In this document: piece after piece, positions 30,253 through 64,000 of the stretch
How positions within the stretch are numbered: position 1 is the first letter of the stretch
How the letters are laid out: each line of letters opens with the position of its first letter
DNA from: Solitalea canadensis DSM 3403
Lineage (GTDB): Bacteria > Bacteroidota > Bacteroidia > Sphingobacteriales > Sphingobacteriaceae
Assembly: GCF_000242635.2 (NCBI RefSeq)
Contig: NC_017770.1
Span: 1,178,001 to 1,242,000 of the forward strand
Direction of reading: 5' to 3'
DNA length: 64,000 nt
Made by a program: the position numbers and the translations under genes
The notes under the pieces: generated by a model
What the model saw: only the letters and a program-made list of their open reading frames with translations
What the model was told of the DNA's origin: nothing
Database searches by the model: none

Positions 30253-30879
30253 ATGCAAAAATCAAATTACATCTATCTTCTAATTACACTCTTTTTTCTA
30301 TTTACTAACTGTAAAAATGCATCTGCCCAAAATGGAGAGTGGGTTAAAGGGCATTATACTTGGAGCGGAGAGCGGGTTGAAGGCTTCCTTAAACATCGTT
30401 TTCAGGCACAGTTTGGCTCCGGTCCTGATAATAGCCTACGTTTTATGGTCGATAGAGACGCTAAAAGAATAACCCTCACAACTAAAGAAGTAAAAAGCTT
30501 TGTTCTGCAAATCGAAAGAGGTAAAGTAGATAGTTTCATTGTCATAAAGAATTTCACTATAAATGTATTTGCGACCTATCGTGAGGATTTTGTGAAGGTA
30601 GTTGCCACGGGTCCTTTAAATTTATATATGCATTACAGCACAGTTTCGACAGGCTCCAAGTATGGGGCGACTACATCTCCTGTCAGCAATTGGTTGGTTC
30701 AAAAAGGGGAGTCGTTGACACTAATTAAAAATCAGTCAAACTTCAAAGAGGTAATGCCACAATTAGTTTCAGATGATACTGAACTTGTTGAAAAGATCAC
30801 AAATAAAGAGTTTAAGTACAGAGACATAGAAGAAGTAATAAGGCTATATAACCAAAAACGCTTTACATCCCTCAACTGA
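30253..30879 (+). CDS. Secreted cassette protein, copy C (208 residues)
   Basis: Same family as copies A, B and D; one tyrosine is missing (GHYTWSGER). The signal region is FFLFTNCKNASAQ, like copy D, while the C-terminal half equals copy B, suggesting gene conversion among copies. The frame is intact. Confidence 0.78.
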   Translation: MQKSNYIYLLITLFFLFTNCKNASAQNGEWVKGHYTWSGERVEGFLKHRFQAQFGSGPDNSLRFMVDRDAKRITLTTKEVKSFVLQIERGKVDSFIVIKNFTINVFATYREDFVKVVATGPLNLYMHYSTVSTGSKYGATTSPVSNWLVQKGESLTLIKNQSNFKEVMPQLVSDDTELVEKITNKEFKYRDIEEVIRLYNQKRFTSLN

Positions 30880-33067: not shown

Positions 33068-33697
33068 ATGCGAAAACCAAATTACATCTATCTTCTAATT
33101 ACACTCTTTTTTCTATTTACTAACTGTAAAAATGCATCTGCCCAAAATGGAGAATGGGTAAAAGGGCATTATTATACTTGGAGCGGAGAGCGGGTTGAAG
33201 GCTTCCTTAAACATCGTTTTCAGGCACAGTTTGGCTCCGGTCCTGATAATAGCCTGCGTTTTATGGTCGATAGAGACGCTAAAAGAATAACCCTCACAAC
33301 TAAAGATGTAAAAAGCTTTGTTCTGCAAATCGAAAGAGGTAAAGTAGATAGTTTCATTGTCATAAAGAATTTCACTATAAATGTATTTGCGACCTATCGT
33401 GAGGATTTTGTCAAGGTAGTTGCAACGGGTCCTTTAAATTTATATATGCATTACAGCACAGTTTCGACAGGCTCCAAGTATGGGGTGACTACATCTCCTG
33501 TCAGCAATTGGTTGGTTCAAAAAGGGGAGTCGTTGACACTAATTAAAAATCAGTCAAACTTCAAAGAGGTAATGCCACAATTAGTTTCAGATGATACTGA
33601 ACTTGTTGAAAAGATCACAAATAAAGAGTTTAAGTACAGAGACATAGAAGAAGTAATAAGACTATATAACCAAAAACACCTTACATCCCTCAACTGA
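33068..33697 (+). CDS. Secreted cassette protein, copy D (209 residues)
   Basis: Full-length copy with signal FFLFTNCKNASAQ. It differs from copy A by the extra SNWLVQ segment and from B/C at few positions (GVTTSPV, NQKHLTSLN). It stands next to the only intact tail-fibre-like gene, so this pair probably represents the original two-gene unit. Confidence 0.8.
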   Translation: MRKPNYIYLLITLFFLFTNCKNASAQNGEWVKGHYYTWSGERVEGFLKHRFQAQFGSGPDNSLRFMVDRDAKRITLTTKDVKSFVLQIERGKVDSFIVIKNFTINVFATYREDFVKVVATGPLNLYMHYSTVSTGSKYGVTTSPVSNWLVQKGESLTLIKNQSNFKEVMPQLVSDDTELVEKITNKEFKYRDIEEVIRLYNQKHLTSLN

Positions 33698-45709: not shown

Positions 45710-45761
45710 AGAAAACATCCATATAAAAGATATGCGTTTTACCAATCAACCAAAAATAATT

Positions 45762-46967
45762 ATGAAACGTACATTGTTACTTTTTGTAGTGATTGTACTT
45801 AGTTTAAGCTCTTGTTATGCACAAACAAAAAAATCTGCAGCGCAGATTGTAACAGGTGCAGACCAAACAGAACTTTACCTTCCTTACTTAAAAGGCAAGC
45901 GTATAGGAATGGTGGTAAATCAAACTTCTATCATTGGCAAAACCCCTAGTGTCGACAGTCTGCATAATTTAGGTGTAAACATTGTTAAGGTTTTTGGTCC
46001 TGAGCATGGCTTTAGAGGTAATGCGAGTGCAGGTGTACATGTAGATGATGAAGTTGATGCAAAAACAGGTATCAAAGTTCTTTCACTTTACGGAAAAACA
46101 AGCAAGCCTTCAAAGGAGAGTCTTTCAGATATCGATTTAATGATCTTTGATATTCAGGATGTAGGAGCGAGATTCTATACATACACGATCACGCTTCATC
46201 GCGTTATGGAAGCTTGCGCTGAAAATAATGTCGAATTGCTAATCCTTGATCGCCCGAATCCAAATGGCTATTTAATTGATGGTCCGATCCTGGATCCTAA
46301 ATTTAAATCAGGTATTGGTATTCATCCGGTGCCTATTGCGCATGGCATGACAGTGGGAGAGTATGCCAAGATGATCAATGGTCAAGGATGGCTAGCTAAT
46401 CAAGTTAAATGTAAGATCAAAATAATTCAGGTTAAAAATTATAAGCATGATATGGCTTATGAATTACCGGTGTTTCCATCTCCGAACCTTAATTCACAAC
46501 AATCCATTCTATTATATCCTTCTGTTTGCTGGTTTGAAGGTACCATCATTAGTCAGGGTAGAGGAACTTATTTTCCATTCACCGTTTTAGGTAATCCGGA
46601 TTTGAAAGGTAAATACGATTTTTCATTTACCCCAAAAAGTATCAAAGGAATGAGTGAAACACCATTGTTTATGGACACAGAATGTTTCGGTTTGGATTTA
46701 AGAAAATATGATACCTCTCTATTAAGAAAAAAGAAACAGATCAATATCCAATGGATGATCGAGTTTTATAAAGCTTACCCACATAAAGAAAAATTCTTTG
46801 ATGCAAAACAAAGTAAAGAAATAGGCAATATCGACAGGCTTGCAGGAACGGATTTGTTTAAACAACAAATTGTTGAAGGAAAGTCAGAAGCAGAAATTCG
46901 TAAAAGCTGGGAGCCTGGCCTGAGTCAATACAAGAAGATGCGTAAACAATATTTACTGTACAATTAA
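45762..46967 (+). CDS. namZ: GH171 exo-beta-N-acetylmuramidase (NamZ-like, DUF1343) 1
   Basis: 401 residues from the ATG at 45762, aligned with the second copy's start; an ATG ten codons earlier is nearer the promoter but is not part of the signal. Signal LLLFVVIVLSLSSCYAQ. The DUF1343 fold is complete: IVTGADQTELYLPYLKGKRI, VVNQTSIIGK, KVFGPEHGFRGNASAGVHVD, FDIQDVGARFYTYTITLHR, WEPGLSQYKKMRKQYLLY. Characterised relatives (NamZ) release terminal MurNAc from peptidoglycan fragments. It heads an operon with the second susCD pair. Confidence 0.9.
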   Translation: MKRTLLLFVVIVLSLSSCYAQTKKSAAQIVTGADQTELYLPYLKGKRIGMVVNQTSIIGKTPSVDSLHNLGVNIVKVFGPEHGFRGNASAGVHVDDEVDAKTGIKVLSLYGKTSKPSKESLSDIDLMIFDIQDVGARFYTYTITLHRVMEACAENNVELLILDRPNPNGYLIDGPILDPKFKSGIGIHPVPIAHGMTVGEYAKMINGQGWLANQVKCKIKIIQVKNYKHDMAYELPVFPSPNLNSQQSILLYPSVCWFEGTIISQGRGTYFPFTVLGNPDLKGKYDFSFTPKSIKGMSETPLFMDTECFGLDLRKYDTSLLRKKKQINIQWMIEFYKAYPHKEKFFDAKQSKEIGNIDRLAGTDLFKQQIVEGKSEAEIRKSWEPGLSQYKKMRKQYLLYN

Positions 46968-53759: not shown

Positions 53760-54953
53760 ATGAAACGCCCGTTTATCCTATTGTTCATGTTGGTCATTGG
53801 TTTTTCGTTAAGCTATGGTCAGCAGAAAAAAATCATTACAGGAGCAGATCAAACCTCCCTTTACCTCTCTTATTTAAAAGATAAGCGAATTGGAATGGTG
53901 GTCAATAACACATCTGTTATTGGTAAAACTTCCAGTGTTGATAGTCTTCATTCGCTTGGTATTAACATCGTAAAAATCTTCGGCCCGGAACACGGCTTTA
54001 GAGGAAACGCAAGCGCAGGAATTCACGTTGATGACGAAGTTGATGCTAAAACAGGTATTAAAGTAATTTCTTTATACGGTAAAGAAAGTAAACCTTCTCC
54101 AGAGAGTCTTTCCGATATCGATTTAATGATCTTTGATATACAGGATGTAGGAGCTCGCTTTTATACCTATACCATCACGCTACACAAAATAATGGAGGCC
54201 TGTGCAGAGAATGATAAGGAGCTACTGATCCTTGACAGACCGAATCCTAATGGTTACTTAATTGACGGCCCGATCCTGGACTTAAATTATAAATCTGGTA
54301 TAGGCATTCATCCGGTACCGATTGCTCACGGAATGACAGTAGGTGAGTATGCCCAAATGATTAACGGAGAAGGATGGCTGGCAAACGGAGTAAAATGTAA
54401 ACTCAAAATTATTCCGGTGGCTAATTATAAGCATGATATGCAGTATACATTGCCTATTCCTCCATCCCCTAATCTTAATACTCAGCAATCCATATTACTA
54501 TACCCTTCCACTTGTTTGTTTGAAGGAACTGTTATTAATCTGGGCAGAGGTACCAAATTCCCATTTACTGTTTTAGGAAACCCGTTGCTAAAAGATACTT
54601 ACTTTTTTTCGTTTACTCCTAAAAGTATAAAAGGAATGGCTGAAACACCTTTGTTTCAGGATGTTGAATGCTATGGTCTCGATTTAAGGGAGTATGATAT
54701 CGAGAAACTTATCAAAACTAAAAAGATCAACCTTCAGTGGATGATCGAGTTTTATAAGGCCTATCCCGACAAAGCGAAATTCTTTGATTACACCCAAAGT
54801 AAAGAAATGGGTGACATTAATAAGCTGGCTGGAACAGCCTTGTTTAAGCAGCAAATCATCGAAGGAAAATCAGAGGCCGAAATTCGTAAGAGTTGGGAAC
54901 CAGGATTAAGTCAATACAAGAAAATGCATAAGCAGTACTTGCTGTATAAATAA
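53760..54953 (+). CDS. namZ: GH171 exo-beta-N-acetylmuramidase (NamZ-like, DUF1343) 2
   Basis: 397 residues, signal ILLFMLVIGFSLSYGQ. It aligns along its full length with copy 1 at high identity (IFGPEHGFRGNASAGIHVDD, DIQDVGARFYTYTITLHK, WEPGLSQYKKMHKQYLLYK). Differences cluster in a substrate-side loop (GTVINLGRGTKFPFTV versus GTIISQGRGTYFPFTV), which may mean slightly different acceptors. It heads the operon with susC 3, susD 3 and probably GH9. Confidence 0.9.
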   Translation: MKRPFILLFMLVIGFSLSYGQQKKIITGADQTSLYLSYLKDKRIGMVVNNTSVIGKTSSVDSLHSLGINIVKIFGPEHGFRGNASAGIHVDDEVDAKTGIKVISLYGKESKPSPESLSDIDLMIFDIQDVGARFYTYTITLHKIMEACAENDKELLILDRPNPNGYLIDGPILDLNYKSGIGIHPVPIAHGMTVGEYAQMINGEGWLANGVKCKLKIIPVANYKHDMQYTLPIPPSPNLNTQQSILLYPSTCLFEGTVINLGRGTKFPFTVLGNPLLKDTYFFSFTPKSIKGMAETPLFQDVECYGLDLREYDIEKLIKTKKINLQWMIEFYKAYPDKAKFFDYTQSKEMGDINKLAGTALFKQQIIEGKSEAEIRKSWEPGLSQYKKMHKQYLLYK

Positions 54954-55075: not shown

Positions 55076-58000
55076 ATGAATAAAAGACTACTCTTGTTCT
55101 TACTGAGTTTTGTCTTTTTCTCTGTGCAAGCCCTTGCCCAGAAGAAAACAATAACCGGTAAAGTAACTTCGGCTGAAGATGGCACATCTCTGACCGGGGT
55201 TTCCGTTGTCATTAAGAATACCAATGCGGGTATTTCAACAGATGTGGATGGAAATTATTCCATAAAGGCTGAAAAAGGTCAAATTTTGATCTTTTCCTAC
55301 TATGGTGCCATTACTCAAGAAAAAATTATTGGTACTGAAAACGTTATTAATGTAAAAATGGTAAGCGATACTAAGGTATTGGATGAAGTGGTGGTAGTTG
55401 GCTACGGTACTCAAAAGAAAGCTAACCTAACCGGGGCAGTTGCAACTATTGACCCTAAAATGTTGGAGTCAAGACCAATTACTGATGTTGCCCGTGGTTT
55501 ACAAGGAGCGGTTCCGGGCTTAACCATTACCACAGCAACAGGTGACTTGGGTACTAATCCAAGTATTAAATTACGTGGTCTTGTAGGTTCAGTAAATATG
55601 GGCACAACAGGTCCTCAGCCATTGATATTGGTGGATAACGTTGAAATTCCGAATCTTTCGCTGATAAACCCTGAAGATATTGCGACACTTTCGGTACTGA
55701 AAGATGCCGCATCGACATCAATTTATGGTGCCAGAGGTGCCTGGGGTGTAATTTTGATCACTACTAAATCAGGTAAGAAAGGTTCGCCAAGCAGAATTAC
55801 TTATTCCAATAATGTAGCATGGGCCACACCAACTAAAACGCCTACAATGGCTTCTGCAGCAGATAATGCACAAGCTTCTTTTACCGCTTTTCAAAGAGTA
55901 AATCCTGATACGAAATCATTCGGTGTTATCGGTTACACAATCGATGAGGCTTCAATTGCCAAAATGAGAGAATGGGATGCACAATACAAAGGACAAAATT
56001 TAGGTGATGAAATGGTAATGGGTCGTGACTTTGATATCATAAATGAAAAATTGTTTTTCTATCGTTCCTGGGATGCCGGAAATATGTATATGCGTGATTG
56101 GACGCCTACTCAAAAACATGATCTTAATATTTCAGGAGGAAGTGAAAATACGAGTTACAATATTGGATTGGGCTACCTCGGTCAAGAGGGGGTTTTAAAA
56201 GTAAATCCTGACAGCTATAATAGGTATAACATGTCTGTTGGTGTTAATACAACAGTTAATAAATGGCTGGATGCCAGAGGAAAGATCATGTTTACCAATG
56301 CAAAAACTTCTACTCCTTTTTCATATAGCAGTACAGCGTATGGCCCTTGGTATTATTTATATAGATGGCCTGCCAATTATCCTTACGGTACATACGAAGG
56401 TAAGCCATTCAGAGGCACTATTGCTGAGGTATCTCAGGCCGACATGGATGTTACTAAAGACGTACTTAGCCGTATATCAATCGGTGGAACTTTAAAACCT
56501 GTAAAAGATCTTACCATTGATATGGATTACACCTATACCAATACTAATATGAATTTGCATCAGGTGGGTAAACCTACTTATGCTTATGATTTTTGGTCGT
56601 TTAACGGAAAAGCACTGGATTATAAAAACTATCAAAGCGTATCATATGATAAGGTTAGGGAATATGAATACCTAACTGAGAATAATACAGGTAAAATCTA
56701 TGCTACCTATAATTATAAATTAACAAAGGATCATGTTTTCAAAGGAATGTTGGGTAGTGATATTGAGAAATTTGTAAGTAAGGATATGTCAGCAAACCGT
56801 AGAAACATGTTGCATCCTGATTATGGTTCAATTCCACTGACAACCGGAGACCAGTCAGTAGAGGAGTATTCATCATGGAGAAATTCAGAATGGACTACGA
56901 TCGGATTCTTTGGGCGTATTAATTATGCGTATAAAGATAAATACCTGTTAGAAGTAAACGGCAGGTATGATGGGTCGTCTCGTTTTCCGGTAAATGATTT
57001 ATGGGCCTTTTTCCCTTCAACCTCTGTTGGATATGTTATCTCGCAAGAACCATTTATGGAATCAGCCCAGTCGGTGGTTTCATTTCTAAAAGTAAGAGGA
57101 TCATATGGTTCGGTAGGAAATCAATCAGTAGGTGCCTATAGATTCTTAAGGGCATTGCGTCCTAAAACGACTACCTGGATTACTAATGGTAATAATGTGC
57201 CAACCGTTTATGCTCCAAACAATGTATCTCCGACACTTAGCTGGGAAACTGTAACTACTTTGGATATAGGTGTGGACGCTAGGTTCCTTAATGATAAATT
57301 AGGTTTTACATTTGATTGGTACCAACGTACTACCTCGGATATGGTTACGATGGGTGCAACTTTGCCTGCTACATATGGAGCTGATGTAGCTTCAAGAAAC
57401 TTTGGAGAACTACAAGGTCGAGGATGGGAGTTTGCTGTGGACTTTAATCATACGTTTGAGAACGGCTTGCGTTTAACTGCTCAAGCTACTTTGGCAGATG
57501 GTCAGGAGCGTATAACAAAATTTGCGAACTTAAATAAAACCCTTCCTAATGCAATGGGTTCGTATGCCATTAATGCGAATACAGGAACATCTTATTATGA
57601 AGGTATGAAAGTTGGTGAAATATGGGGCTACGAAACAGAAAGATATTTTACAGTGGATGACTTTAAAGGGCAAGATGCAGGTGGAAAATGGATTTATAAA
57701 GAAGGTGTACCTAAGCAGGATGTTTTGCAGTCAGGTAACTTTTATTATGGCCCTGGCGATATCAAGTACAAAGATTTGAACGGAGACGGAGTTATTAATT
57801 TCGGTGGAAATACGCTTGATGATCACGGTGATAAAAAAGTGATTGGCAACTCAACACCTCGCTACCAGTACGGGTTAAAATTAGGTGCAGCCTGGAAAGG
57901 CTTTGACCTTGATGTTTATTTTCAAGGAGTTGGCAAGCGTGATCTGTGGGCCAGCGGTAACATCGTAGTTCCTGGATTCAGAGCAGGAGAAGGCTGGTAT

Positions 58001-58375
58001 GATTATCAAATGGACTATTGGACACCTGAAAATCAGGATGCTTATTATCCTCGTCCTATTGATTATGGATCGGCTGGTAACAAATGGAATTTTGAGCCTC
58101 AAACCAAGTATTTGCTGGATATGTCGTACCTCCGGATGAAAAACCTGACACTAGGTTATACACTCGATCAAAAATTCGCCGAAAGGGTAAAAGTCCAAAA
58201 GGTACGTTTTTATTTAACTGGTGAAAACCTGTTGACATTTGACAACCTTAATGTTCCAATAGATCCAGAAATTGATTTTAGCACAGGACAACTTGGAGAT
58301 TCATCAGGTGCTGGTTTTGGTCGCTCATATCCTTACCGGAAAACAATTTCAGTTGGTTTACAAGTAACTTTTTAA
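55076..58375 (+). CDS. SusC/RagA-family TonB-dependent outer membrane transporter (3)
   Basis: 1099 residues, more distant from the other two. Signal (RLLLFLLSFVFFSVQALAQ), regulatory-like domain (ITGKVTSAEDGTSLTGVSVV), plug (VLDEVVVVGYGTQKKANLTG), signature ASTSIYGARGAWGVILITTK, barrel ending RKTISVGLQVTF. The extracellular loops are longer than in copies 1 and 2 (YLDT/PRPIDYGSAGNKWNF region), consistent with another ligand. SusD 3 follows after 13 bp. Confidence 0.95.
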   Translation: MNKRLLLFLLSFVFFSVQALAQKKTITGKVTSAEDGTSLTGVSVVIKNTNAGISTDVDGNYSIKAEKGQILIFSYYGAITQEKIIGTENVINVKMVSDTKVLDEVVVVGYGTQKKANLTGAVATIDPKMLESRPITDVARGLQGAVPGLTITTATGDLGTNPSIKLRGLVGSVNMGTTGPQPLILVDNVEIPNLSLINPEDIATLSVLKDAASTSIYGARGAWGVILITTKSGKKGSPSRITYSNNVAWATPTKTPTMASAADNAQASFTAFQRVNPDTKSFGVIGYTIDEASIAKMREWDAQYKGQNLGDEMVMGRDFDIINEKLFFYRSWDAGNMYMRDWTPTQKHDLNISGGSENTSYNIGLGYLGQEGVLKVNPDSYNRYNMSVGVNTTVNKWLDARGKIMFTNAKTSTPFSYSSTAYGPWYYLYRWPANYPYGTYEGKPFRGTIAEVSQADMDVTKDVLSRISIGGTLKPVKDLTIDMDYTYTNTNMNLHQVGKPTYAYDFWSFNGKALDYKNYQSVSYDKVREYEYLTENNTGKIYATYNYKLTKDHVFKGMLGSDIEKFVSKDMSANRRNMLHPDYGSIPLTTGDQSVEEYSSWRNSEWTTIGFFGRINYAYKDKYLLEVNGRYDGSSRFPVNDLWAFFPSTSVGYVISQEPFMESAQSVVSFLKVRGSYGSVGNQSVGAYRFLRALRPKTTTWITNGNNVPTVYAPNNVSPTLSWETVTTLDIGVDARFLNDKLGFTFDWYQRTTSDMVTMGATLPATYGADVASRNFGELQGRGWEFAVDFNHTFENGLRLTAQATLADGQERITKFANLNKTLPNAMGSYAINANTGTSYYEGMKVGEIWGYETERYFTVDDFKGQDAGGKWIYKEGVPKQDVLQSGNFYYGPGDIKYKDLNGDGVINFGGNTLDDHGDKKVIGNSTPRYQYGLKLGAAWKGFDLDVYFQGVGKRDLWASGNIVVPGFRAGEGWYDYQMDYWTPENQDAYYPRPIDYGSAGNKWNFEPQTKYLLDMSYLRMKNLTLGYTLDQKFAERVKVQKVRFYLTGENLLTFDNLNVPIDPEIDFSTGQLGDSSGAGFGRSYPYRKTISVGLQVTF

Positions 58376-58388
58376 TTAAAGAAGATTC

Positions 58389-60104
58389 ATGAAAACGCAT
58401 ATATATACATTACTCCTATCCATTTTATTAATAGGTGGGTGTAAAAAAGCAGATGATTTTTTAACAACTCAGCCAACTGACAGGATCCTTGATAAGGATT
58501 ATTGGAAAAGTGAGGCTAATGTAAAGATATTCGCATGGGATTTTTATCCCACCTACTTTATTGGATACGCAAGTGGATATACTTTTGGTGATTATTTCTC
58601 TGGAGAAACGCTTAATGATGATTTTGCTCCAACAACGCCAGCTAAGTTTCCTTACACAACGGCACCCGCTGCACAGTCTTCATCAAATTGGGCTTTTACG
58701 AATATTACCAGAGCTAACATAATGCTTGAAAATGTTAGAAAAGTGCCAATGCCTCAGGAAGCAATTGGTCATTGGTCAGGTATTGCACGCTTTTTCAGAG
58801 CAATGGAATATGCAAAAAGGGTGAGACTAAACGGCGATTGTCCTTTTTATAATAAAGAACTTAAAGAAAATGATATTGCGCTGCTTTATAAACCTCGTGA
58901 TCCAAGAACATTGGTGATGGATAGTGTGTTAGCAGATTTTAACTATGCGGCTGCTAATGTCAGAGTTAAAGATGAAACTACCGGACCTCAGCGATTAGTG
59001 GTTGACAGATGGGTGGTTTTAGCTTACATGTCAAGAATCTTCTTGTATGAAGGAACATGGCAGAAATACCAGGAGGGTAATATGACTAAAGCCACAGAAT
59101 ACTTGCAAGCTGCAAAATGGGCGGCTAATGAGGTAATGACAAAAGGCGGATTTAGTATTGCACCTGATTACCGTAAAATGTTTAACTCACTTGATCTTAA
59201 CGGAAATACTGAAATGATCATGTATAGGAGTTATGTAGCTGGGAAAACTACCCATAGTTTAAATACTTATAATAATGCAGAAGCTCAAAGCGGTGCATCA
59301 AAAAATGCAATGGAATCATATTTGTGTTCAGATGGATTGCCGGTTTCGTTATCGCCTTTATATCAGGGAGATAAAACAATTACTAATGTGATGGCTAACA
59401 GAGACCCTCGTATGAGTGCTACCTTTGTTAATGAGATACGATTAAATAAAGTGGTTTTTAATTATTCTACTACGGGTTATGCATGTCATAAGTTCCTTAA
59501 TGAAGAAATTAAAAATACTACAGAAGGTTTTACTAATTTAAATACAACAGATGCCCCTGTAATTCGCTTAGGTGAAATACTGTTAAATTATGCTGAAGCT
59601 TGTTCAGAATTAGATGTATTAACACAAGATGATCTGAATAAGTCTATCAATAAATTAAGAAAAAGATCCGGTGTTAATCTGCCTGACCTTCAAGTTGTAG
59701 GTACACAGGCTATGGTAAATGGTGTAGCCTATGATGATCCTAAAAGAGATCCTTCTGTATCTTCAATTCTTTGGGAAATCCGTCGTGAACGTCGTACAGA
59801 GCTGATGTTTGAAGGCTTCCGTAACAATGATTTGAAGAGATGGAAAAAGTATGAATACCTTGATACAAAAGCCAATATCGATATAAACAGGGGAGCTTGG
59901 GTACGGAAATCAGATTATCCTGCAGATAAACAACCATCTGTTACCCTTGATGGAGGAACTGAAGGTTATATAATTCCGGCTCCAAGTGCTACCAATCAAC
60001 GCGTTTTTGATAATCAAAGGGTGTATTTATCACCGCTACCTCTTGACCAGATCACTTTATATAAAGCGAATGGTTATGAGTTAAAACAAAATCCCGGCTG
60101 GTAG
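58389..60104 (+). CDS. SusD/RagB-family glycan-binding lipoprotein (3)
   Basis: 571 residues with lipobox LIGGC, then DDFLTTQPTDRILDKDYWKS of the classical RagB/SusD type (different from the SusD-like_2 type of copies 1 and 2). The C-terminal motif EIRRERRTELMFEGFRNNDL, then KRWKKYEYLDTK is the family hallmark. It partners susC 3. Confidence 0.95.
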   Translation: MKTHIYTLLLSILLIGGCKKADDFLTTQPTDRILDKDYWKSEANVKIFAWDFYPTYFIGYASGYTFGDYFSGETLNDDFAPTTPAKFPYTTAPAAQSSSNWAFTNITRANIMLENVRKVPMPQEAIGHWSGIARFFRAMEYAKRVRLNGDCPFYNKELKENDIALLYKPRDPRTLVMDSVLADFNYAAANVRVKDETTGPQRLVVDRWVVLAYMSRIFLYEGTWQKYQEGNMTKATEYLQAAKWAANEVMTKGGFSIAPDYRKMFNSLDLNGNTEMIMYRSYVAGKTTHSLNTYNNAEAQSGASKNAMESYLCSDGLPVSLSPLYQGDKTITNVMANRDPRMSATFVNEIRLNKVVFNYSTTGYACHKFLNEEIKNTTEGFTNLNTTDAPVIRLGEILLNYAEACSELDVLTQDDLNKSINKLRKRSGVNLPDLQVVGTQAMVNGVAYDDPKRDPSVSSILWEIRRERRTELMFEGFRNNDLKRWKKYEYLDTKANIDINRGAWVRKSDYPADKQPSVTLDGGTEGYIIPAPSATNQRVFDNQRVYLSPLPLDQITLYKANGYELKQNPGW

Positions 60105-60285: not shown

Positions 60286-62091
60286 ATGAACTCAACAAAA
60301 ACCGCACTATTATTGATGCTATTTCTGATCGCATCATCATTCAAATTTGAAAGCCCTTCCGCTTGGATAAGGATCAATCAATTAGGTTATACACCCTCAA
60401 GCGTTAAAGTGGCAGTGTGGGTTAGTCTATCTGATGAAAGTATCAGTAGTTTTGAACTGATCGATGCTGTGAGTAATCAAGTGGTTTTTACCAATAAGAC
60501 TGGCAAAGCATTTGGCTCTTACGGACCGTTTAAGCAGTCTTACCGATTAAATTTTACTTCATTTAAACAATCGGGAAGCTATTATTTGAAATCGGGCTCA
60601 ATTAAGTCTCCGGTTTTTAAAATCGATAATGATGTTTACAAAGGTACGGCCGATTTTGCTCTACGGTACATGCGACAACAGCGTAGTGGTTTTAATCCAT
60701 ATTTGAAAGATTCATGTCATGTGTATGATGGCTATACCATGTATGGTCCAATGCCCGATTCTACAAGAATTGATGTGTCTGGTGGATGGCATGATGCTTC
60801 CGACTATTTACAATATGCTACTACTTCTGCCAATGCCACTTATCATTTGTTGGCTGCTTACCGAGATTTTCCAACTGTTTTTTCTGATCAGCATGCAGCA
60901 AACGGACTTGAAGGAAAGAATGGTGTGGCAGATATTCTTGACGAAGCAAAGTGGGGTATTGATTGGTTGTTGAAATTGCATCCGCGCGAAGATTGGTTAT
61001 TTAATCAATTAGCAGACGACAGAGATCATCAAGGGATGCGATTACCTACGGAAGATAATGTGGATTATGGGGTAGGCAAGGGTAAAGGGCGGCCGGTTTA
61101 TTTTGCTACAGGAAACCCTCAGGGTTTAGGTAAATACAAAAACAGAGCAACCGGAGTAGCTTCTACTGCCGGCAAGTTTGCAAGTGCATTTGCATTAGCA
61201 TCACAACTCTACAAAGAAAAAAATGACTCTTTGAGCCGACTGTTATTAAATAAATCACTTTCCGCTTATCAATTAGGTATTAAAAAACCAGGTGTTTGTC
61301 AAACCGCACCCAATCTGGCTCCTTATTTTTATGAAGAGGATAACTGGACGGATGACATGGAGCTTGGTGCTGCGGCTTTATACCAACTTACGGGCAACAA
61401 TAAGTATTATAGTGATTCTTGGAATTACAGTTTGCAGGAAAAGGTTACACCGTGGATGGGTGCTGATACTGCTCGTCATTATCAATGGTATCCATTCCAT
61501 AATTTCGGTCATTTTGAATTAACAAAGCTTGTAGCTGCAAAAAACAAGAAAACACTGATTGGTTATTATAAATTAGGTATTGAAAAAGTATTTGAAAAGG
61601 CTAAGAAGAATGCCTTTTACAGAGGGATTCCATTTATATGGTGCTCTAATAATCTAACCACCTCTTTTGCTATACAGTGTTCTTTGTATGAAAAGTTAAG
61701 CGGCGACAAATCCTTTAATGAATTGGAGCAGGCGAATTTCGACTGGCTGCTTGGTTGTAACCCGTGGGGCACAAGTATGGTGTTTGGATTGCCTGAACAC
61801 GGCGATACACCTGTAGACCCACATTCTGCTTTTACACATTTACATCAATTTCCTATTGACGGAGGTTTGGTTGATGGTCCCGTTTACGGAGCTATTTATA
61901 AAAGTTTAAAAGGTATTAGGCTATTTCAACCTGATGAATACGAACTATTTCAGTCCGATTTGGTAGTTTATCATGATGATTATGGCGATTACAGTACCAA
62001 TGAACCAACAATGGACGGAACGGCTTCATTAATTTATCTATTTGCATCAAAAGAATATGGATCACCGGAGGTATCCAAAAGAAAAAAGTAA
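60286..62091 (+). CDS. Glycoside hydrolase family 9 enzyme with N-terminal Ig-like domain
   Basis: 601 residues from the ATG at 60286, which opens the signal peptide (TALLLMLFLIASSFKF); an upstream TTG start is unlikely. N-terminal GH9-type Ig domain about 20-115 (IRINQLGYTPSSVKVAVWVS), catalytic (alpha/alpha)6 barrel from about 125: SGGWHDASDYLQYATTSANA holds the base Asp pair, WLLGCNPWGTSMVFGLPEHG and DPHSAF the substrate His, and DYGDYSTNEPTMDGTASLIY the acid Glu. GH9 includes endoglucanases and exo-glucosaminidases. The frame ends in A-AAA-AAG-TAA and a deacetylase frame continues at -1. Confidence 0.92.
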   Translation: MNSTKTALLLMLFLIASSFKFESPSAWIRINQLGYTPSSVKVAVWVSLSDESISSFELIDAVSNQVVFTNKTGKAFGSYGPFKQSYRLNFTSFKQSGSYYLKSGSIKSPVFKIDNDVYKGTADFALRYMRQQRSGFNPYLKDSCHVYDGYTMYGPMPDSTRIDVSGGWHDASDYLQYATTSANATYHLLAAYRDFPTVFSDQHAANGLEGKNGVADILDEAKWGIDWLLKLHPREDWLFNQLADDRDHQGMRLPTEDNVDYGVGKGKGRPVYFATGNPQGLGKYKNRATGVASTAGKFASAFALASQLYKEKNDSLSRLLLNKSLSAYQLGIKKPGVCQTAPNLAPYFYEEDNWTDDMELGAAALYQLTGNNKYYSDSWNYSLQEKVTPWMGADTARHYQWYPFHNFGHFELTKLVAAKNKKTLIGYYKLGIEKVFEKAKKNAFYRGIPFIWCSNNLTTSFAIQCSLYEKLSGDKSFNELEQANFDWLLGCNPWGTSMVFGLPEHGDTPVDPHSAFTHLHQFPIDGGLVDGPVYGAIYKSLKGIRLFQPDEYELFQSDLVVYHDDYGDYSTNEPTMDGTASLIYLFASKEYGSPEVSKRKK

Positions 62092-62110
62092 TTATTGATG
62101 CTCAGGGAGC
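62067..62110 (+). promoter_or_regulatory. Candidate programmed -1 frameshift signal (GH9 to deacetylase)
   Basis: In the GH9 frame the last bases read A-AAA-AAG (62082-62088) directly before TAA, the strongest known bacterial -1 slippery heptamer, as in dnaX. A Shine-Dalgarno-like GGAGG (62067-62071) lies 10 nt upstream, the spacing that stimulates slippage in dnaX, and a small stem GCTC-AGG-GAGC (62100-62110) lies 11 nt downstream. A -1 slip continues with GTA ATT ATT GAT into the deacetylase frame. A plain mutation or base-count error cannot be excluded. Confidence 0.55.
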
Positions 62111-62786
62111 TATTATTAAAGGCGACACTTCAGCAGCTAAAATTGCATTAGTATTTACCGGTGATGAATTTGCCGACGGAGGAACTGTTATTCAAACAGC
62201 TCTTCGCAGGCAAAAATGTAAAGCATCCTTCTTTTTTACCGGACGATTTTATCGCAATCCTGAGTTTGGCTCATTGGTTAAAAGGTTGAAAGCAAATGGG
62301 CATTATTTAGGTTCGCACTCTGATGCGCATTTATTGTATTGCGACTGGAAGAAAAGGGACAGCTTGCTGGTTAGCAAAGAGCAGTTTATTGCAGACCTTA
62401 ATAAGAGTTTTGCAACGATGGACTCATTGGGGATTGATAAAAATAAGGCCCTTTATTATTTACCTCCCTATGAATGGTATAATAAAACTATAGCCAATTG
62501 GACACATGAACAGGGGTTAACGTTGATTAACTTTTCTCCCGGAACAAGGTCAGCAGCAGATTATACCTGGCCACAACTCGGCAAACAGTACCAAACTGCT
62601 GATAAAATTTATAAGTCAATAATGGATAAAGAAAAAGTGGATGGTTTAAATGGTTTTATCCTCTTGTTACATGTTGGAACTGATAGTAGAAGAACAGATA
62701 AGTTTTATGATCTGCTTGAAAAGCTGATTTTGGAGTTGAAAAACAAAAACTATCAATTCGTTTGCATTGATGAGTTACTCAATTAA
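62088..62786 (+). CDS. Polysaccharide deacetylase (NodB-like) domain, in the -1 frame after GH9
   Basis: 232 codons from the slip site; the first ATG in this frame is only at 62274 and lies inside the domain. Residues encoded from about 62130 are NodB-like: KIALVFTGDEFADGG (catalytic Asp region), ASFFFTGRFYRN, HYLGSHSDAHLLYCDW (metal-binding H-x3-H type), YYLPPYEWYN, and GFILLLHVGTD (final His). The domain would deacetylate amino sugars. Lacking a start or signal peptide of its own, it is best explained as the C-terminal part of a GH9-deacetylase fusion of about 833 residues. Confidence 0.82.
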   Translation, partial: VIIDAQGAIIKGDTSAAKIALVFTGDEFADGGTVIQTALRRQKCKASFFFTGRFYRNPEFGSLVKRLKANGHYLGSHSDAHLLYCDWKKRDSLLVSKEQFIADLNKSFATMDSLGIDKNKALYYLPPYEWYNKTIANWTHEQGLTLINFSPGTRSAADYTWPQLGKQYQTADKIYKSIMDKEKVDGLNGFILLLHVGTDSRRTDKFYDLLEKLILELKNKNYQFVCIDELLN

Positions 62787-62787
62787 G

Positions 62788-62970
62788 TGCGGTTTTGTGC
62801 ATTTTTTAATTTGCAAGTAGGAGTGTTTTTTTACCATTTTTTCATAAAACTTCAAGCTAACTTGCGGTTTTGTGCATATTTATTCCAATAGTGTGCATGA
62901 AAACAAAATAAAGTTTTTATTTTAGGGAGCTCAAATGTTATAGAATCTGAAGCAAATGCAAGAGTTTGCG
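62788..62970 (+). promoter_or_regulatory. TGC-N8-GCA sites before the metallophosphatase gene
   Basis: Two identical sites TGCGGTTTTGTGCA at 62788 and 62863, and TGCAAGAGTTTGCG at 62957. The first begins 1 bp after the deacetylase stop codon. AAATAAAGTTTTTATTTTAG at about 62906-62926 resembles the promoter spacer and -7 region of the other operons. Confidence 0.6.
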
Positions 62971-62992
62971 TTTTTTTAATAGTATAAGTATT

Positions 62993-64000
62993 ATGAATTT
63001 CAGAAAGTGTATTTCCCTGTTATTGGTATTAACAGCATTAAATGTTGCATGTTTCGGTCAAAATGCGTTTAAGTTTGCATTTGTAACCGACACTCATGTT
63101 GGTAATGGAACAGGTGCAGATGACCTGCGTCGTACTGTACAAGATATTAATGCTAATCCTTCTTTAGCTTTTGTAGTCGTAACCGGTGATGTTACTGAGT
63201 TTGGTGCCGACCATGAATTAAAACTTGCTAAGCAAATACTAGATAGCCTTAATAAAAAATACTATGTGATTCCTGGTAATCATGATGCCAATTGGTCAGA
63301 GAGTGGAAGTAACACTTTTAAAACCGTTTTTGGTGCTGAAACATTTTCATTTATTCACGAAGGTTATTTATTCGCCGCAACAAGTTCAGGTCCAAATATG
63401 AGAATGAGCCCAGGACAAATTCCTCGCGAAAATGTTGTATGGCTTGATTCTGTACTTAAAAACATGAAAAATGCCGAAATGCCTGTAATCTATCTGAACC
63501 ATTATCCACAAGACGATGGTCAGAATAACTGGTATGAGGCCATTAACCGTCTTAAGAAAAGAAATACGCAGTTAATCCTGTGTGGTCACGGACATAATAA
63601 TCATAAATACAATTTTGAGAATATCCCGGGTGTAATGGGCCGTTCTAACCTCCGTGCAAAAGACAGTATTGGCGGTTATAATGTGGTAACCATTAAGGAC
63701 GGAATTGCAACTTTCGAAGAAAGAAAACCAATAGTACAAACTCAAAAACAATGGCTGGAGGTTCCATTGGTTAATCATCACTTCAGCAAAGATACCACTC
63801 GATTTCCTCGTCCTTCTTTCGCTGTAAATTCAACCAATAGTGGATTGAAAGTAGTTTGGGAGTTCCAGGATAGGAGTGATGTCGGTGCAGGAATCGCAGT
63901 TACTAAAGATCTCTTGATCGCAGTAAATACCAGTGGCGACATTTATGCATTAAATAAGAAAACCGGTAAAGTAAAATGGACTTTTACCAGCAATGGTAAA
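62993..64000 (+). CDS. Exported metallophosphatase fused to a PQQ-like beta-propeller (3' end outside window)
   Basis: 336 codons visible. Signal peptide (CISLLLVLTALNVACFGQ). Calcineurin-like phosphoesterase about 22-250 with all metal motifs: VTDTHVG (D-x-H), VTGDVTEFG (GD), PGNHDANW (GNHD), LNHYPQ, CGHGHNNHK (GHxH). From about 275 a PQQ-type beta-propeller begins (VVWEFQDRSDVGAGIAVTKD, IYALNKKTGKVKWTF) and continues past the window. Such proteins may cleave phosphodiester or phosphomonoester groups from envelope glycans; the substrate is not known. It shares upstream sites with the NamZ operons. Confidence 0.9.
   Translation, partial: MNFRKCISLLLVLTALNVACFGQNAFKFAFVTDTHVGNGTGADDLRRTVQDINANPSLAFVVVTGDVTEFGADHELKLAKQILDSLNKKYYVIPGNHDANWSESGSNTFKTVFGAETFSFIHEGYLFAATSSGPNMRMSPGQIPRENVVWLDSVLKNMKNAEMPVIYLNHYPQDDGQNNWYEAINRLKKRNTQLILCGHGHNNHKYNFENIPGVMGRSNLRAKDSIGGYNVVTIKDGIATFEERKPIVQTQKQWLEVPLVNHHFSKDTTRFPRPSFAVNSTNSGLKVVWEFQDRSDVGAGIAVTKDLLIAVNTSGDIYALNKKTGKVKWTFTSNGK

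Follow-up and report, generated by a model that had tools for sequence, protein, structure and literature searches.

The window, by which we mean the whole stretch of 64,000 nucleotides of Solitalea canadensis DSM 3403 that was analysed (NC_017770.1, positions 1,178,001 to 1,242,000), carries a gene for a family 9 glycoside hydrolase (GH9) whose reading frame ends on a slippery heptamer, followed in the -1 frame by a polysaccharide deacetylase (Table 1). The codons leading into the GH9 stop are TCC AAA AGA AAA AAG TAA, and the deacetylase reading opens with GTA at 62088-62090 (V-I-I-D-A-Q) and stops at 62784-62786. A preliminary description, made from the sequence alone, had noted an A-AAA-AAG-TAA end of the GH9 frame, a GGAGG 10 nt upstream and a NodB deacetylase in the -1 frame without a start of its own, and all of this held. 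The number of A residues, which it had listed as a check, was confirmed as six followed by a G. The spacer between GGAGG and heptamer is ten nucleotides, and the first ATG, GTG or TTG of the deacetylase frame lies 185 nt beyond the GH9 stop, past the first catalytic motif (the first ATG at 329 nt).

Table 1. Coordinates of the GH9-deacetylase junction and of neighbouring genes in the window.
Feature	Position	Strand	Basis
NamZ-like gene, second copy	45732-46967		context
NamZ-like exo-beta-N-acetylmuramidase	53760..54953	+	context
SusC/SusD-like pair, upstream	55076..60104	+	context
GH9 glycoside hydrolase with CelD_N domain, 601-aa 0-frame product	60286..62091	+	ORF, Pfam
GGAGG, internal Shine-Dalgarno-like putative stimulator, complement of own 16S CCTCC	62067..62071	+	sequence, relatives
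Slippery heptamer A_AAA_AAG	62082..62088	+	sequence, conservation
0-frame stop TAA, adjoining the heptamer	62089..62091	+	
CE4 (NodB-type) polysaccharide deacetylase, -1 frame, 232 aa, reached only via the slip	62088..62786	+	
Calcineurin-like phosphoesterase with PQQ-like start, running off the window end	62966..64000	+	context

Two enzyme domains and their genomic context

The GH9 domain comprises residues 118-585 and is thus finished before the slip site; it scores 243 bits, above the cut-off, and covers positions 1-443 of the 444 in its Pfam profile, and CelD_N is matched as well (75 bits). The N-terminus of the product resembles a signal peptide, judged by eye only. On the deacetylase frame, Polysacc_deac_1 (PF01522) scores 45 bits (44.9) against a cut-off of 23, and the same family was matched in all 20 members scanned. 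The deacetylase is predicted to be folded from the first -1 residues onwards (pLDDT 95), and the model matches CE4 deacetylases with Z up to 24.8. Among its catalytic and metal-binding residues, D26 is nearly invariant and H77 and H81 are invariant. Both marks of CE4 membership, a PF01522 match above cut-off with a CE4 fold and the catalytic Asp with HxxxH ligands, are therefore met, and the -1 frame encodes a complete CE4 domain that begins at the slip site, its fold being a prediction. Activity is not assured, since the second Asp of the TFDD motif is a Glu. The known enzymes PdaA, Bc1960 and BA0150 resemble this domain in fold (Z 23 to 24.8) and in the H-S-x-x-H metal motif but share only about 22% identity with it; they carry the usual TFDD in place of GDE and are not fused to GH9.

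The SusC/SusD pair, the NamZ-like gene and the phosphoesterase recur next to the gene in several genera, although not in all. In the window, two similar NamZ-like genes are each followed by a SusC/SusD pair, which suggests a duplicated locus. Elsewhere in the window, two near-identical genes of about 208 aa (30253-30879 and 33068-33697) flank an RHS-like gene and share a 300-nt repeat, 99% identical, at a distance of 2818 nt. The fold of the CE4 domain is most like that of peptidoglycan deacetylases and of PdaA; PDB structures related to the GH9 are those of endoglucanases. Peptidoglycan or another amino-sugar polymer could be the substrate, which is no more than a guess from context.

Recurrence of the junction and selection on the signal

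A whole-genome search for GGAGGN{9,13}AAAAAAGTAR returned a single match in the 5.2 Mb genome, the site in the window, while the reversed control pattern gave 0 to 3 matches per strand per genome. To survey the junction, we turned to Sphingobacteriaceae, including Pedobacter, Daejeonella, Arcticibacter and Pararcticibacter, where a deacetylase homologue was present in 145 of 400 genomes. Two loci in which this homologue has no adjoining GH9 (L302 and L045) were set aside. In 67 of the 100 long loci read from this family (our own included) the two genes are unfused, and the deacetylase lies in the -1 frame in every one of them. A slippery A-run marks all of these junctions: in 49 the heptamer abuts the stop, in three it precedes the stop by one or a few codons, and 15 have a run of ten A (A10). 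In total, the heptamer with its stop was found in 73 loci (66 distinct) across eight genera of Sphingobacteriaceae as well as Pontibacter and Chryseolinea, whose named genomes contain both heptamer and Shine-Dalgarno (SD) motif; in the named genomes of Chitinophaga and Chryseosolibacter, the junction has nine A. The Pontibacter GH9 proteins are 71-76% identical to our own and thereby nearer than many same-family copies, suggesting transfer between orders. Moreover, one locus of a distant family (L163, f78) has GH9 and deacetylase in the -1 arrangement with A10-G-TAG, perhaps an independent case of slippage.

The GGAGG motif accompanies the heptamer within 22 nt in 59 of the 66 distinct loci, compared with a background of 1.8% per 22-nt window; the in-phase heptamer itself has a background rate of 0.06% per codon. 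The remaining seven carry the near-SD variants GAGG, GGAG or GGGGG at the same place. Scored by script, the spacing was exactly 10 nt in 50 loci, and in four more from Pontibacter the script picked an overlapping second GGAGG rather than the one at 10 nt. The 0-frame stop was TAA or TAG, never TGA, in 73/73 heptamer loci. TAG accounts for 28 of these 73. At the ends of the same genes, by contrast, TGA is found eight times, and this bias may reflect selection on termination.

The signal is also conserved beyond what coding demands. In an alignment of 27 heptamer sequences less than 85% identical to each other, the GAG codon of GGAGG showed a synonymous identity of 1.0 (100%), compared with 0.39 in the gene body, where none of 373 columns reached 0.8. 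The NNA and AAA codons likewise reached 1.0; for the AAG column, in which a gap displaces one row, the value was 0.93. These latter values are partly built in because the heptamer was required for entry into the set; neither the value for GAG nor the presence of an A-run in all unfused same-family loci results from this choice. Downstream, mismatch rates by codon position of 0.37/0.25/0.63 show that the -1 frame evolves as a protein under purifying selection. In 27 of the 73 loci no ATG, GTG or TTG precedes the catalytic motif in the deacetylase frame; some GTG or TTG is available in 45 loci and an ATG in only seven. In two loci (L099 and L077), the deacetylase frame opens only 7 nt before the GH9 stop. 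The junction thus shows those marks of the class of programmed -1 frameshifts that can be read from sequence: where the frames overlap, the 0 frame contains an X_XXY_YYZ heptamer; a stimulator lies at a functional distance (GGAGG at 10 nt, and a hairpin in one group described below); and the signal is more conserved than coding requires. The remaining mark, a trans-frame product in cells, is inferred.

Variant signals and in-frame fusions

We found no stable conserved downstream hairpin next to the window site, nor a constant one outside a group of Pedobacter and Chitinophagaceae. In this group, which comprises five loci of Pedobacter, two MAGs of Chitinophagaceae and the recently fused Pedobacter locus L210, a six-pair hairpin begins five nt beyond the heptamer; it is 97.9% paired and has two covarying pairs, in a small sample of eight sequences. 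A second variant occurs in the large genus g16, which we take to be perhaps Sphingobacterium, with 29 heptamer, 15 A10 and 19 fused loci. In its A10 clade the run is exactly ten A in 15/15 unfused loci, 14 of which lack GGAGG. Among sister species, A10, A9 and A11 distinguish unfused from fused forms. Runs of about nine A are prone to slippage in many bacteria (PMC1088944), and the A10 clade, the only one assessed for the transcriptional slippage class, shows its mark of an A-run of at least nine with conserved length. The clade probably makes the same two products mainly via transcriptional slippage, an inference without data on mRNA heterogeneity.

In-frame GH9-deacetylase fusions make up 68 of the 158 distinct tips of the protein tree. 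The frame states change 21 times on this tree, compared with a mean of 65 when labels are shuffled, and in-frame fusions recur across it. GGAGG is found nearby in only six of 91 distinct fused loci, and both elements in four; this rarity ties the motif to the frame offset. Two in-frame fusions (L110 and L210) retain GGAGG and an A-run that is lengthened in comparison to their relatives. These are likely recent fusions out of the frameshifted form, while the ancestral state across the tree remains unsettled. That many relatives are fused in frame also means that GH9 alone is dispensable there and not always needed.

Probable origin and significance of the two inferred products

The signal and its conservation are shown here, as are the lack of other starts at many loci, a complete CE4 domain and the organism's own anti-SD. 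Its 16S rRNA copies end in CCTCCTTT, which contains the CCTCC anti-SD. From these comparative data, we regard it as very probable that the gene uses a programmed -1 ribosomal frameshift, stimulated by SD/anti-SD pairing, to give both GH9 and GH9-CE4; slippage itself, its efficiency and the importance of both products are inferred. A ribosome at A_AAA_AAG, with the stop codon next, would pause, helped by pairing of GGAGG with the anti-SD of 16S rRNA, and the two tRNA-Lys would re-pair one base back, so that translation enters the deacetylase frame. Most ribosomes would probably terminate and release GH9 alone, and a fraction would produce a two-enzyme GH9-CE4 chain of roughly 833 aa that inherits the secretion signal of GH9. 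In E. coli, an SD 6-17 nt upstream stimulates frameshifting (PMC4066793), a range that includes the spacing in the window. Moreover, the prfB gene of the same genome has a +1 frameshift site with a perfect SD, AGGAGG CAT CTT TGA C (L274, minus strand, about 2520-2500). Sites of this kind occur in all Sphingobacteriales analysed (PMC8710568), and elongating ribosomes here presumably already use an internal SD, as has been argued for Bacteroidia (PMC8710568). Several observations point against frameshifting. Ribosomes of Bacteroidia occlude the anti-SD via bS21 and neighbouring proteins (PMC9976891), prfB frameshifting in F. johnsoniae was reported to be inefficient (PMC12421855), and the genome has one tRNA-Lys(CUU) gene besides three for UUU. 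By analogy with dnaX, the tRNA-Lys(CUU) could lower slippage at AAG. The many in-frame fusions and the lack of a general downstream hairpin add to these objections.

Three other explanations were considered. Transcriptional slippage in the A-run, rather than the ribosome, could create the fused frame; the A10 clade and the run-length differences among sister species speak for it. However, the A-run is just six long in the window and in most of the 66 heptamer loci, and such slippage would need neither a strictly kept GGAGG nor an AAG codon, making it a very improbable account of them. Sequencing error or a recent indel could have split a fused gene into a pseudogene; many relatives are indeed fused in frame, and A-runs are prone to indels, as the preliminary description had cautioned. 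This reading failed on the comparative data: with 66 distinct loci sharing the offset and the motif we rejected it, and purifying selection downstream and extreme synonymous conservation leave practically no room for it. That description had named, as one refuting case, in-frame fusion in relatives with a single-base difference in the A-run and without a kept heptamer. In-frame fusions exist, yet dozens of loci across several genera and another order retain both heptamer and GGAGG, and its proposal was not refuted.

Alternatively, re-initiation could yield a separate deacetylase, GGAGG serving as the ribosome-binding site. A GGAGG shortly before a stop is a usual layout of coupled genes, and GTG or TTG codons are available in most heptamer loci. 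Nevertheless, the missing start codons in the others led us to reject this model, and it is as good as ruled out by the distant first start in the window and the scarcity of ATG. Furthermore, the folded domain begins at the slip site, and a separate product would be without a secretion signal. The ribosomal frameshift thus remains the preferred reading. It supports the original suggestion that one gene yields GH9 alone and GH9-deacetylase, although production of both is inferred. The remark that a functional GGAGG would be notable, because Bacteroidota seldom initiate by SD pairing, was taken up, its function again being inferred; the complete CE4 domain, the Pedobacter/Chitinophagaceae hairpin and the A10 clade were added here.

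Few jobs apart from prfB are known for SD/anti-SD pairing of Bacteroidota ribosomes, and this locus offers a direct test of whether an occluded anti-SD works during elongation. A bolder reading, which we consider unlikely, starts from the hiding of the anti-SD by bS21 and its neighbours: slippage at GGAGG may require ribosomes whose anti-SD has been freed. If true, the state of the ribosome (bS21 content, temperature, growth) could be read from the ratio of GH9 to GH9-CE4. On the main reading, a chromosomal metabolic gene rather than a mobile element holds an SD-stimulated -1 signal in dozens of species, and the signal occurs in many soil and water Bacteroidota. An A10 run seems to have replaced it in one clade. 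Frameshift, transcriptional slippage and fusion form a natural series with related outputs. Annotated mechanically, such genes would be misread in many genomes as a GH9 gene followed by a fragment without a start.

We found no prior report of a GH9 or deacetylase frameshift in the literature searched, and the GeneTack survey (PMC3711429; supplement not covered) names no such case in its main text. Among known systems, dnaX shares A_AAA_AAG, an upstream SD-like stimulator and two products per gene; its downstream hairpin has a counterpart only in the Pedobacter/Chitinophagaceae group. Slippage in dnaX leads to the shorter product, whereas here it would lead to the longer one, with two enzymes, and the 0 frame stops right at the heptamer; moreover, dnaX is a polymerase gene, and ours encodes a secreted enzyme in a phylum with occluded anti-SD. 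The OrfA-OrfB -1 frameshifts of IS elements (A_AAA_AAG class) have in common a slippery A-run, optional stimulators and a longer product with a second domain, but our case is a chromosomal carbohydrate-enzyme gene without a transposase. The prfB frameshift of Bacteroidia, present in the same phylum and in this very genome, shares an internal SD acting on elongating ribosomes; it is a +1 shift with short spacing and an autoregulatory role, whereas the GH9-deacetylase signal is of the -1 type with 10 nt spacing.
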